From assembly GCF_019192965.1 (NCBI RefSeq), contig NZ_JAHTKU010000011.1, positions 248,001-312,000 of the forward strand: 64,000 bases of DNA, in the 5' to 3' direction. This DNA is from Nocardioides daeguensis. GTDB lineage: Bacteria > Actinomycetota > Actinomycetes > Propionibacteriales > Nocardioidaceae. The position numbers and the translations under genes are program-made. Shown piece after piece: positions 51,096-58,239 of this stretch (position 1 is its first letter; each line of letters starts with the position of its first letter). The notes below the pieces were generated by a model. It did no database searches and was not told the origin of the DNA. It saw nothing but the letters and a program-made list of their open reading frames with translations.

Positions 51096-53111
<2,016 letters not shown>

Positions 53112-53158: not shown

Positions 53159-54538
53159 GTGCATGAGTTCGCGATCGAGGATCGCCACGTACTCGATGCG
53201 GTCGCGGGCTGGATCTCGGATCGACTCTCCCACCCGGAGCGGTTCACCTCGCTCGACGGCGTCCCGCGGGCTCCGCTGCCGACGGTGGGGCCGACGGGGA
53301 TCGGTGTCGAAGCCACCTGGGAGGTGCTGCGCGACGAGGTCCTGCCGACAGCGTTCCCCGCGGACCACCCCCGTTACCTCGCGTTCGTGGGCGGTGCGCC
53401 GACCCCGGCGGCCGTGCTCGCCGACGCGGCGCTCTCGGCCGCGGCGATCTACGGCGGCAGCGAGCTCGAGGCCGGCGCGGTCGTGGCGGCGGAGCGTGCG
53501 GCGGCTCGTTGGTTGTGCGACCTCGTCGGCTATCCGCGCCAGGCACGAGGAACCTTCGTGAGCGGTGGCTCGATGGCGAACCTGAGCGCGCTGGTCGCGG
53601 CGCGCCACGCCCGGACCTCCGCGGGCCGCCCCGTGCCGCGCACCATCGTCGCCGGAGCCGGGGCACACGCGTCCGTGGCAGCCGCGGCGTCGATCATGGG
53701 GTGCACGCTCGTCCTGGCCGGGTCGCGGGACCGCGCGCTGCGCGCCGCCGACCTGGCGCCCGTGCTGGACGAGCTCGCGCCCGACGACGTGGTGGCGGTC
53801 GTGGCGAGCGCGGGCGCCACCAACAGCGGGGCGGTCGACGCGCTCGACGAGGTCGCCGCGGCGTGTGCGGCACGCCGGACCTGGCTGCACGTCGATGCCG
53901 CCTACGGCGGCGCCGCGCTCCTGGCGCCTGCCTCGCGTCGGCTGTTCGAGGGTATCGATCGGGCCGACTCGGTCACCATCGACCCCCACAAGTGGCTCTT
54001 CACGCCGTTCGACTGCGCGGCGGTGCTGTACCGCGACCCCCAGGTCGCCCGGGAGGCGCACCGGCAGAGCGCGGACTACCTCGACGCGGCCCAGGACGTC
54101 GGCGCGGACAACCCCGCCGACTACGCCGTGCACCTGACCCGCCGCGCTCGCGGGCTGCCGGTGTGGGCCTCGCTGGTCGCGAACGGGACCGAGGCCTATC
54201 GCCGGGCCGTCGAGGCGTGCCTGAGCACCGCCCGGTACGCCGCCGAGCGGATCGCGGCGAACCCGGTGCTGGAGCTGGTCGGCGAACCGCAGCTGTCGGT
54301 GGTCCTCTTCCGCCGGCGCGGCTGGACCCCGGCCGACTACCAGCAGTGGTCGTCGCACGCGCGCTCGCGTGGGTTCGCCCTGGTCACCCCCACCTCCTTC
54401 GGCGGCGAGACCGTCCTGCGACTGTGCTTCGTCAACCCCCGGACCACCCCGCTCGACGTCGACCTGGTGCTGGCCGGCGTGGCGGGCGGCGCGCAGCTGC
54501 CCGGCCCCATGGGTGAAAAGGTCTCGGGAATGTGGTAA
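53159..54538 (+). CDS. PLP-dependent group II decarboxylase-like protein
   Basis: A 459-residue fold-type I PLP enzyme. The PLP lysine lies in TIDPHKWLFTPFDCAAVLYRD at about residue 278. GTFVSGGSMANLSALVAAR binds the cofactor phosphate, and LHVDAAYGGAALL has the PLP-binding Asp. The fold matches aromatic-amino-acid, glutamate or diaminobutyrate decarboxylases; the substrate cannot be set. The GTG start at 53159 follows a TACGAT box with an eight-base gap. The next gene starts 66 bases later. Confidence 0.83.
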   Translation: MHEFAIEDRHVLDAVAGWISDRLSHPERFTSLDGVPRAPLPTVGPTGIGVEATWEVLRDEVLPTAFPADHPRYLAFVGGAPTPAAVLADAALSAAAIYGGSELEAGAVVAAERAAARWLCDLVGYPRQARGTFVSGGSMANLSALVAARHARTSAGRPVPRTIVAGAGAHASVAAAASIMGCTLVLAGSRDRALRAADLAPVLDELAPDDVVAVVASAGATNSGAVDALDEVAAACAARRTWLHVDAAYGGAALLAPASRRLFEGIDRADSVTIDPHKWLFTPFDCAAVLYRDPQVAREAHRQSADYLDAAQDVGADNPADYAVHLTRRARGLPVWASLVANGTEAYRRAVEACLSTARYAAERIAANPVLELVGEPQLSVVLFRRRGWTPADYQQWSSHARSRGFALVTPTSFGGETVLRLCFVNPRTTPLDVDLVLAGVAGGAQLPGPMGEKVSGMW

Positions 54539-54604: not shown

Positions 54605-56908
54605 ATGACCGTGCGCAGGTGGGGCGCGTCCGAGTCGCGATCTCCGCGCGTCGCCGTGGCCGAGCGCGTCGTGGGACGCCTGTCCTGGGTGTGGCTGATC
54701 GTCGGGCTCGCGGCCAACCAGCTGGCACAGTCGGCCACGCACGAGACGAGCCAGGCGATCTTGCTGACCACCCTCTCGATCTTCTTCCCGATGCTGCTCC
54801 TGCGCCTCGCCCTGGCGGTGCGCCTGTATCCGGGGCGGAGGACGGGCCTGCTCCTGCTTCTCGGCGCGGTCTTCGCCTGGTCGTTGGGCTCGATGACGGT
54901 CAACGCCGAGAGCGCCGCCACGCGGGCGCACTTCCCGGCGCCGGGGGAGTGGCTGTTCCTCGTCTCCTACGTCGGCATGGCCGGCTACCTGATGCTCGAC
55001 CTCGACCGGCGACAGCTGCGCCCGACGCGGGGGTGGCTCGACATCGCCGTGATCTGCGGCGCGACGTCGTGCCTGGCGTCGCTGCTCCTGGTCACGCCGA
55101 TCCGGCTGGCGTCCGGCCAGGAGGGAGCACCGCTCCTGCTGGCCCTGATGTACCCGCTGGCCGACCTCGCCCTGGTGCTCGCGGTGCTCGTGCAGGCGCT
55201 CCTCCACGCCCGCGGCGACCGGCGCAAGTCGGTCATGCTGGGCCTCGCCTTCACCCTGCTGGCCGCCGCGGACTCGGGGTTCACCCTCCAGGCGTCAGCA
55301 CGCACCTATGACTTCGCCAATGCCAGCAACGCGCTGTGGGGCGGCGCCTTCGCGCTGCTCGTGGCGGCAGCGTGCCGTCCTCCTCAGGCGGTCATGCGCA
55401 GTGTTCCCAAGGCCGCCGGCACCACCGTCCTGCTCAGCGCAGGCGCGGTGGCCGCCGCCGTCCTGATGATCCGGCCGGACGAGACGCTGGCCTACTACAC
55501 ACTGCCCCCGGCACTGCTCACGATGGTCGCGGTCGCCTGGCGGATGGGCCTGGCTCTCAAGGACGCGAACCGGGCCACCGAGGCGTTCGCCCTGTCGCAG
55601 ACCGACGACCTGACCAAGCTGCCGAACCGGAGGGCGGTGCGCGTCCGGTTGGAGGCGGGGCTGGCCGCCCGCAAGCCGCTGGCACTGATGATGCTGGACC
55701 TCGACGGCTTCAAGGAGATCAACGACGCGCTCGGGCACCACGTGGGGGACACGGTGCTCCGCCTGGTGGCGGTGCGGATGCGTGAGACCGTCGAGCCGCA
55801 CGACCTGGTCGCCCGGCTGGGCGGGGACGAGTTCGCGATCATCCTCGGGACCGACGACGAGATCGAGCTGATGGAGGTCGCGCACCAGGTGTTGCGCGAC
55901 CTCGGGCAGCCGATCGCCGTGGACGGCATCGAGGTCTGTCCGTCGGGCTCGATCGGGATCACGATCGCCCAGGTCGACGACGCCGACGGCGGTGACATGC
56001 TGCGACGTGCGGACGTCGCGATGTACCAGGCGAAGAGCTCGAGCATGGGGGCGGCCCTCTACGACGCCGAGCTGGACGAGTTCTCACGATCACGACTGCA
56101 GCTGGCCGAGGATCTCCGCAAGGGCATCGCCGACGACCAGATCGAGGTCTGGTACCAGCCGCAGCTGGACGTGGCCACGATGCAGATCTCCGGGCTGGAG
56201 GCGCTGGTCCGCTGGCGCCACCCGGTCGAGGGCGTGCTCAGCCCCGTCTCGTTCCTGCCGGTGGCGCGCCGGGCCGGCCTCATGGGGACGCTGTCGGAGA
56301 CGGTCGCCCGGCAGGCGGTGCGTGAGCACGTCAACCTGGTCGGGTCGGGCCTGGATCTGCGGGTCGCCATCAACTGCGCCCCGACCGAGCTGCTCGGACA
56401 GGCCTTCCTGCCCCACCTCTATGCCGCGGTCGAGGCGAGCGGGGCCCCCGTCGACGGCCTGGTCCTCGAGGTGACCGAGGACTCCTTCCTCGCGGACCCG
56501 CAGCGCACCCGCGAGGTCCTGCAGGATCTGCGCAGCCATGGCGTCCAGGTCTCGATCGACGACTACGGCACCGGGTTCTCCTCGCTCACCTATCTGCGCA
56601 ACCTCCCGGTGCAGGAGCTGAAGATCGACCGCTCCCTCGTCGCCCACGTCGCCACCGACACCCGCAGCCGCAAGATCGTGGCCTCGACGATCCAGCTCGC
56701 GCACGCGCTCGACATGCGGATCGTCGCCGAAGGCGTCGAGAACGCCGCCGACCTCGAGGCGCTGGTCGAGATGGGCATCGACACGGTGCAGGGCTACCAC
56801 CTCGCCCGGCCGATGCCGGCCCGCGAGGTCGAGAGCTGGGTGCGCGGCTGGAGCTCCGCCGCGCTGTCGGGAGAGCGGCACGCCGACGGCCGCCGGATGG
56901 CAGGATGA
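54605..56908 (+). CDS. GGDEF-EAL cyclic-di-GMP turnover protein with membrane sensor
   Basis: A 767-residue protein. The first 310 residues hold eight or nine membrane helices, probably a sensor. A GGDEF domain follows, with an intact GGDEF at about residues 405-409. Its inhibitory RxxD site is degenerate (EPHD). The EAL domain starts near residue 500, with LEALVRW near 532, INCAPTEL, EVTEDSF, DDYGTGFSS, ELKIDRS and EGVEN all present, so both catalytic centres look complete. Net activity cannot be told. The ATG has GGAAGGAGG just upstream. The gene encoding an N-acyltransferase-like protein follows after 50 bases. Confidence 0.9.
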   Translation: MTVRRWGASESRSPRVAVAERVVGRLSWVWLIVGLAANQLAQSATHETSQAILLTTLSIFFPMLLLRLALAVRLYPGRRTGLLLLLGAVFAWSLGSMTVNAESAATRAHFPAPGEWLFLVSYVGMAGYLMLDLDRRQLRPTRGWLDIAVICGATSCLASLLLVTPIRLASGQEGAPLLLALMYPLADLALVLAVLVQALLHARGDRRKSVMLGLAFTLLAAADSGFTLQASARTYDFANASNALWGGAFALLVAAACRPPQAVMRSVPKAAGTTVLLSAGAVAAAVLMIRPDETLAYYTLPPALLTMVAVAWRMGLALKDANRATEAFALSQTDDLTKLPNRRAVRVRLEAGLAARKPLALMMLDLDGFKEINDALGHHVGDTVLRLVAVRMRETVEPHDLVARLGGDEFAIILGTDDEIELMEVAHQVLRDLGQPIAVDGIEVCPSGSIGITIAQVDDADGGDMLRRADVAMYQAKSSSMGAALYDAELDEFSRSRLQLAEDLRKGIADDQIEVWYQPQLDVATMQISGLEALVRWRHPVEGVLSPVSFLPVARRAGLMGTLSETVARQAVREHVNLVGSGLDLRVAINCAPTELLGQAFLPHLYAAVEASGAPVDGLVLEVTEDSFLADPQRTREVLQDLRSHGVQVSIDDYGTGFSSLTYLRNLPVQELKIDRSLVAHVATDTRSRKIVASTIQLAHALDMRIVAEGVENAADLEALVEMGIDTVQGYHLARPMPAREVESWVRGWSSAALSGERHADGRRMAG

Positions 56909-56958
56909 GACCGCGGCGGAGCTGGAGCCCGGCCGCTCCGGACCACGAGGAGGCTGCG

Positions 56959-57657
56959 ATGAGCGCCGCCCCCCTGCGGCTCGTGCTCGACCCCGTCGGT
57001 CGGGAGCTGGCCGCCGCCCTGCGGTGCGAGGCCGACGTCTTCTTGGACCGGTACGGCAACACCGCTGCGGAGTTCGAGCGCGAGTACGGGCCCTATCGCG
57101 GCGCGACCGGTTTCATGACCGTGCTGGACGAACGGGGCGAAGCGGTCGCCACGGCTCGGGTCATCGCGCCGGGACCGGCGGGCCTGAAGACGCTCAACGA
57201 CATCTCGCGTCCACCGTGGCAGGTCGACGGCCGGCGCTCGGCCCGGGCGGCCGGCGTCGACCCGGACCGGACCTGGGACATCGCCACGATCGCGGTCAGG
57301 CCCGGCGCCGGGCGCGAGGGTCTGTGCGCGGCCGCGCTCTACCACGGCATCGTGACCGCGGCCTTCGCCAACGACATCGAGTTCGTGGTCATGATCATGG
57401 ACTCGCAGCCGCGACGCCTGCTGACCGAGCTGGGCATGCAGACCCAGGTCCTCCCCGGCACGATGACCGGGGAGTACCTGGGGTCGGACAGCAGCACCCC
57501 GCTGTGGGCCAACCTGCACCGGATGTTCGACCGCCAGCGCCAGGAGGTCCCGGACGCCTACCGGCTGATCTTCCAGGGCATCGGGCTGGACGGCATCGCC
57601 CTGCCGACGGACTGGTCGTGGCGCCCGGGAAGTGCCGTCAGCCGCGTCCGGCGGTGA
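56959..57657 (+). CDS. N-acyl amino acid synthase-like (FeeM/LuxI-fold) acyltransferase
   Basis: A 232-residue protein of the GNAT-related autoinducer synthase fold. CEADVFLDRYGNTAAEFEREYGPYRGATGFMTVLDERGEAVATARVI is the N-terminal pattern, with the D-x-x-G strand and ARVI, seen in FeeM-type N-acyl amino acid synthases and in LuxI. WDIATIAVRPGAGREGLCAAALYHGIV is the acyl-donor loop. Such enzymes join an acyl chain from ACP or CoA to an amine. ATG at 56959 with GAGGAGG upstream. Its position behind a GGDEF-EAL gene suggests a shared signalling role, not proven. Confidence 0.68.
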   Translation: MSAAPLRLVLDPVGRELAAALRCEADVFLDRYGNTAAEFEREYGPYRGATGFMTVLDERGEAVATARVIAPGPAGLKTLNDISRPPWQVDGRRSARAAGVDPDRTWDIATIAVRPGAGREGLCAAALYHGIVTAAFANDIEFVVMIMDSQPRRLLTELGMQTQVLPGTMTGEYLGSDSSTPLWANLHRMFDRQRQEVPDAYRLIFQGIGLDGIALPTDWSWRPGSAVSRVRR

Positions 57658-57681: not shown

Positions 57682-58161
57682 TCACGGGAGCCGGGTCCGG
57701 GTCTCCCTGGCGTGGTCGGCCTGCATCATCCGGGCCATCGCGAAGCAGCAGATCGCCAGCGCGACCATGCCGAGGGCGAAGTGGGCCATCTGGTCGACGC
57801 TGAACAGGTTCACCGCGAGCAGGGCGAACCAGACGCCGAGGACGTCCCCGCCGACCTGCGGCAGGGCGGCGACGAGCAGTCCGATCACCAGCGTGATCGC
57901 TCCGATCCACATCACGGCGTCGGCGGCGTTGCCGGGCAGCAGGTCGTTGACCCAGGTCGAGATCGAGGCCTCCCAGGTGGAGCTCTCGGTGACGGCGTTG
58001 GTCATCATGTCGAGCCCCCACAGGACGGGGAGCGCGATGAAGGTCGCCCACAGGACCACTCGGCTCTGGTGGGCGGCGTCGACGGTGGCGAAGTGGGCGA
58101 GGTCGTGCATCTCCTCGCGCATGTCGTGGGTGAGGTTGTCCCACGCGTGGGTGCTGGCCAT
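57682..58161 (-). CDS. Four-helix membrane protein of unknown function
   Basis: A 159-residue protein. A helical N-terminus (DNLTHDMREEMHDLAHFATVDAAHQ) is followed by four hydrophobic segments, about residues 37-56, 83-103, 108-128 and 130-148. No family is recognised with confidence. The ATG at 58161 has AAAGGGG six bases upstream. A minus-strand promoter at 58211-58239 fits. It is divergent from a Cys-rich HTH regulator, which may control it. Confidence 0.6.
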   Translation of the reverse strand: MASTHAWDNLTHDMREEMHDLAHFATVDAAHQSRVVLWATFIALPVLWGLDMMTNAVTESSTWEASISTWVNDLLPGNAADAVMWIGAITLVIGLLVAALPQVGGDVLGVWFALLAVNLFSVDQMAHFALGMVALAICCFAMARMMQADHARETRTRLP

Positions 58162-58210
58162 GGCTGGCCCCTTTCTCGAGCGGTCCCCTTGGTGAGGGAC
58201 ATCACGATCG

Positions 58211-58239
58211 ACGGTAGACCTGTGAGGATCTTTCGACAA
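58211..58239 (-). promoter_or_regulatory. Promoter of the four-helix membrane protein gene
   Basis: On the minus strand TTGTCG (58239-58234) and TACCGT (58216-58211) are 17 bases apart. Confidence 0.45.

Follow-up and report, generated by a model that had tools for sequence, protein, structure and literature searches.

In Burkholderia and Cronobacter, the synthase RpfF of the Burkholderia diffusible signal factor (BDSF) and its GGDEF-EAL receptor RpfR are encoded by convergent genes, and the receptor also restrains the synthase (PMC6361424). RpfF dehydrates and hydrolyses acyl-acyl carrier protein to free unsaturated fatty acids, while RpfR has the domain order FI-PAS-GGDEF-EAL (PMC6361424). 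The making and reading of acyl signals in Actinomycetota is poorly known. luxI homologues without canonical LuxR partners have been reported from the phylum (PMC13136126), and the Mycobacterium tuberculosis N-acyltransferase TyzA, whose model resembles FeeM and BjaI, acylates Tyr and Phe (PMC10404671). Here we describe a three-gene cassette of Nocardioides daeguensis, contained in a 64,000-nucleotide stretch of contig NZ_JAHTKU010000011.1 (positions 248,001 to 312,000; the window). A predicted N-acyltransferase gene adjoins a gene for a membrane-bound GGDEF-EAL protein, and a decarboxylase gene usually completes the set. As in RpfF/RpfR, a gene for a fatty-acyl synthase (here a putative one) stands beside a GGDEF-EAL gene, and the convergent layout is the commonest one among relatives outside the clade of the window. 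Unlike RpfF/RpfR, the synthase is an acyltransferase of the LuxI/FeeM fold and comes with a decarboxylase, and the candidate receptor sits in the membrane with multiple helices. In our reading, to which we assign a probability of roughly 45%, the cassette yields an N-acyl amine and links this product to cyclic di-GMP (c-di-GMP).

The source genome measures 4.66 Mb, and its nearest relatives belong to Nocardioides and Pimelobacter. All three genes lie on the forward strand. The first (53159..54538) encodes a pyridoxal 5'-phosphate (PLP) dependent group II decarboxylase of 459 amino acids (aa), the putative amine supplier. The second (54605..56908) encodes the 767-aa GGDEF-EAL protein, and the third (56959..57657) the 232-aa acyltransferase. 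The original prediction, made from the DNA alone, had taken the second and third genes as the unit. That pair is real, but it omits the decarboxylase gene. The acyltransferase starts at ATG 56959, 50 bases past the stop of the GGDEF-EAL gene and with GGAGG at the normal upstream distance, which agrees with the spacing and the strong ribosome-binding site noted originally. Its homologues share this start point. At 56905 there is a further in-frame ATG, which overlaps the GGDEF-EAL stop (ATGA), and the same is seen in most relatives of the window clade.

The acyltransferase was found in 28/294 family genomes, one of them a weak match that is probably due to chance. Profile searches over the class, the phylum and a second class produced more carriers. 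The genomes searched are samples, and carriers within a genus are related. Neighbourhoods were compiled for 43 distinct loci from two classes of Actinomycetota (44 rows, one genome being listed twice, as L032 and L039). In 42/43 the acyltransferase gene adjoins a GGDEF-EAL gene, so the pair singled out by the original prediction is conserved. At the exception, L095, the acyltransferase gene meets a transposase-like gene and the contig end. Four geometries were observed. In the window clade (Nocardioides/Aeromicrobium), the GGDEF-EAL gene lies upstream on the same strand, mostly with a 4-base ATGA overlap. Most loci outside this clade have convergent genes. The GGDEF-EAL gene is downstream on the same strand in L078 and L079, and upstream on the opposite strand in L091. 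Adjacency in 42/43 loci across four geometries rejects a chance neighbour, and frozen synteny alone was rejected because the geometry and the outer neighbours of the pair change between loci. Pairwise distances of the two proteins are strongly correlated (r = 0.98, 41 pairs), though shared descent alone could also give this value. The acyltransferase and the GGDEF-EAL protein are almost certainly linked in function. In two loci of one genus, a gene of the tryptophan-2,3-dioxygenase family lies directly upstream of the GGDEF-EAL gene (L073:4655-5509 and L076:4623-5477).

The 232-aa protein (ACYLTRANSFERASE) was modelled with AlphaFold using 24 homologues as input, giving a mean predicted local distance difference test score (pLDDT) of 90.2. 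The closest solved structure is FeeM (Z 16.6, root-mean-square deviation (rmsd) 2.7 over 180 residues), followed by LasI (Z 15.9, rmsd 3.0 over 182 residues). Other acyl-homoserine-lactone (AHL) synthases and general GNAT enzymes rank lower, and Z for the LuxI family members LasI and BjaI spans 14.7-15.9. The FeeM/LuxI-like fold proposed earlier is borne out by these matches, and the modelled fold makes N-acyltransferase activity very likely. Sequence similarity is slight. The protein is 11% identical to FeeM, which was not reached by phmmer or by profile searches of PDB sequences. Searches of PDB sequences with the acyltransferase and with profiles of the AdoMet_dc-like protein described below yielded no usable residue alignment beyond that to LasI. 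No Pfam family was matched, autoinducer synthases included. In NCBIfam the sole significant match was to TIGR03694 (exosortase acyltransferase), at 22.4 bits against a cut-off of 111.95 (E 7e-5); homologues score 19-29 bits, with E down to 5e-7. A PEP-CTERM acyltransferase was ruled out, as these scores are far below the cut-off. A plasmid collection contained no match to the acyltransferase, and a plasmid-borne origin was rejected on that ground.

Eleven positions are invariant among the 24 homologues (E24, F28, G33, R67, K77, W87, W106, A126, G175, S176 and P198), and E42 is nearly so. The conserved residues of LuxI, in V. fischeri numbering, are R25, F29, W35, E44, D46, D49 and R70 (PMC5539150). 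Alignment to LasI and the 24 homologues shows that F29, E44 and R70 are retained as F28, E42 and R67. R25, W35, D46 and D49 are lost, and read E24, N34, G44 and a variable residue. Since four catalytic positions are lost, a homoserine-lactone product is unlikely, and the protein probably has the fold but not the chemistry that turns S-adenosylmethionine into a lactone.

TyzA offers an actinobacterial comparison, which here rests on its published description. It is larger (322 aa), and its gene cluster also encodes ThiF-like and nitroreductase-type enzymes, which make acyl-oxazolones (PMC10404671). The characterisation of TyzA, together with the report of an actinobacterial luxI that AHL production requires (PMC13136126), qualifies the earlier statement that acyl-signal synthases of this fold are little studied in actinobacteria.

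The GGDEF-EAL protein is membrane-bound with both active sites intact, as originally proposed. The GGDEF domain spans residues 332-480 (55598..56044; Pfam E 2.5e-40) with the intact motif at 406-410. The EAL domain spans residues 502-736 (56108..56812; Pfam E 1.5e-68) and has every metal and catalytic residue in place (E532, N590, E622, D652, D653, K673, E709 and Q729). An RxxD inhibitory site is neither visible in the window protein nor conserved among its partners in other loci. All or nearly all partners, which include one fragment at the end of a contig, retain the catalytic residues of both domains.

About 325 hydrophobic residues precede the two domains (54605..55579). Hydropathy gives six clear segments in the window protein and 9-10 in several homologues, so the region is predicted to hold 6-10 membrane helices and is the putative sensor. 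It matches no Pfam family, and Pfam detects no PAS domain in the protein. The region is homologous between the two classes of Actinomycetota (hhalign E 3.4e-6). Within a sample of 98 genomes of the genus, it scores >370 bits in only eight, all of them acyltransferase carriers, and the next match scores 32 bits. This genus sample overlaps the family sample, with 14 of the 98 falling outside the 294.

The decarboxylase of the window was identified by Pfam Pyridoxal_deC (180.7 bits, cut-off 27) and has the PLP lysine in an HKW motif. In 20/23 loci of the window clade, the gene immediately before the GGDEF-EAL gene is a close copy. Among Aeromicrobium genomes, 9/9 acyltransferase carriers have it, against 0/40 of the others. 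In the genus sample, close copies (>600 bits) occur in six genomes, all acyltransferase carriers. On the acyltransferase tree, all cassettes with the PLP enzyme fall in one clade with 100/100 support, and those of the AdoMet_dc type described below branch outside it. The nearest solved relatives include the pyridoxal-dependent decarboxylase 4obu, DOPA and diaminobutyrate decarboxylases, and a putative one for desferrioxamine biosynthesis, a range that does not fix the substrate. The same genome carries a paralogue at 51% identity (G000:C26:225219-226526), and similar copies are found in several relatives, also where there is no cassette.

Outside the window clade, most loci encode a second, unrelated kind of putative decarboxylase. 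In 15/20 of these sister loci, a gene of the AdoMet_dc family, encoding about 115-128 aa, lies upstream of the acyltransferase gene and often overlaps or abuts it. Of the other five, three (L074, L093 and L097) show no such gene, L055 retains a remnant, and a contig end truncates L075. The small protein scores 40.6 bits with Pfam AdoMet_dc (cut-off 25) and falls far short of the threshold for the SAM_DCase equivalog. With a pLDDT of 90.9, its model matches the S-adenosylmethionine decarboxylase of T. maritima at Z 14.6, and the positions of the pyruvoyl serine and the active-site cysteine are invariant. The reference residues in T. maritima SpeD are S63, H68 and C83, and His68 belongs to a trio described as necessary for self-processing (PMC10407285). 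Some homologues of SpeD are known to act on ornithine or arginine as decarboxylases (PMC10407285). Two unrelated decarboxylase families thus serve one cassette.

The small protein forms one branch within a broader SpeD subfamily that is marked by an N-terminal LAP.I.RQRL motif and by Tyr at the His68 position. The literature searched contained no account of its function. Members occur on plasmids of Acaryochloris, Nostoc and Halioglobus (L105:8040-8396, L104:8001-8363 and L106:8001-8354) with no cassette-type acyltransferase beside them; on the Acaryochloris plasmid, an ordinary GNAT gene precedes the subfamily gene. Another member, at 35% identity, immediately follows an EAL-domain gene where no acyltransferase gene is seen nearby (L101:1-1313), and this arrangement is a second direct link between the AdoMet_dc-like family and c-di-GMP. 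Two cassette genomes, G627 and G698, have a second AdoMet_dc-like copy elsewhere, 71% identical and again lacking an acyltransferase neighbour (L099:7998-8462 and L100:3814-4257). A search of viral contigs for relatives found none.

These observations can be combined into a three-step scheme. In the first step a decarboxylase would convert an amino acid to an amine, the PLP enzyme doing so in the window clade and the small AdoMet_dc-fold protein in other actinobacteria. In the second step, the LuxI/FeeM-fold enzyme would attach a fatty acyl group to the amine. We felt that the odds were about even that the amine acceptor comes from the decarboxylase, mainly because two unrelated decarboxylase families serve the cassette. 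In the third step the GGDEF-EAL protein would detect the product, or a state that the product reports, through its helical N-terminal region. The balance of c-di-GMP synthesis by GGDEF and breakdown by EAL would then shift. Sensing of the acyltransferase product by the membrane protein is a proposal that we rate at, or a little short of, an even chance. The whole would be a lipid-signal synthase/receptor pair with c-di-GMP output, performing an RpfF/RpfR-like function with unrelated parts.

Several findings weigh against an N-acyl amine made in this way. No decarboxylase gene is found at the site in three Pimelobacter-group loci of the window clade or in three sister-group loci, so a decarboxylase is dispensable in cis. 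The PLP enzyme is confined to one clade, and its linkage may therefore be a single evolutionary event. Co-occurrence within one genus is non-independent evidence. Aligned to Leptospira SpeD, the AdoMet_dc-like protein retains the Ser and Cys and has Tyr at the position of the essential His68, which makes its decarboxylase activity uncertain on sequence grounds. Finally, in genus g389 (L095, L096 and L098) a PLP decarboxylase 44-46% identical to that of the window is separated from the AdoMet_dc-like gene by about 4 kb that include a helicase gene, both kinds falling within about 5 kb. The two kinds are therefore not strictly alternatives, and strict mutual exclusion was dropped.

The control could also run in the reverse direction. 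The c-di-GMP made or removed locally by the membrane protein would switch the acyltransferase on or off, either directly or through contact between the proteins, with the acyl amine serving as a structural or surface lipid and not as a signal. The adjacency and co-occurrence data fit this as well, the GGDEF and EAL motifs are both intact, and the restraint of RpfF by bound RpfR (PMC6361424) makes contact control plausible. On the other hand, Pfam and NCBIfam recognise no c-di-GMP-binding domain in the acyltransferase, and a membrane region dedicated to acyltransferase carriers fits product detection at least as well. We regard reverse control as a possible but less probable arrangement.

The acyltransferase might instead resemble FeeM and TyzA in making N-acyl amino acids, with the decarboxylase acting apart from it, for instance on the acylated product or a competing pool. 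The top structural match is itself an N-acyl amino acid synthase, TyzA is a precedent from M. tuberculosis with a FeeM-like model (PMC10404671), and six loci have no decarboxylase where one would be visible. However, if decarboxylation had no part in the system, it would be hard to see why two unrelated decarboxylase families recur beside the acyltransferase, and we consider this alternative improbable. A solo AHL synthase of the type reported in Actinomycetota, standing beside a c-di-GMP enzyme, is very improbable: LasI and BjaI are among the best structure matches and AHL production in Rhodococcus kroppenstedtii requires a luxI homologue (PMC13136126), but the four changed catalytic positions led us to reject this identity, and the lack of any Pfam match also argues against it.

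Every part of the cassette comes from a known superfamily, and the literature suggests that the combination is undescribed. It was not found in the papers searched, which exclude most subscription papers, and a 2026 study of Actinomycetota LuxI homologues makes no mention of Nocardioidaceae, c-di-GMP, GGDEF, FeeM or decarboxylases. If the N-acyl amine reading is right, the cassette might represent a new class of actinobacterial signalling, in which a LuxI-fold synthase uses an amine from a decarboxylase of its own, and a dedicated membrane receptor with multiple helices gives direct c-di-GMP output with no LuxR-type regulator. We hold this broader claim to be rather doubtful. The conserved pair of synthase and GGDEF-EAL protein supplies a candidate for two gaps, the receptor that is missing and the input to an orphan c-di-GMP protein. 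From genomes alone, the switch in one clade to a PLP decarboxylase, where other loci have an AdoMet-decarboxylase-fold protein, points to an amine as the substrate class.

The cassette is flanked upstream by a gene for a glutamine-dependent NAD synthetase (51096..53111, forward strand; Pfam NAD_synthase and CN_hydrolase), which lies outside the cassette and stays beside it in several Nocardioides/Pimelobacter loci. Directly 3' of the acyltransferase gene, a small open reading frame on the reverse strand (57682-58239) belongs to no family and is 72-82% conserved in Pimelobacter-group loci.

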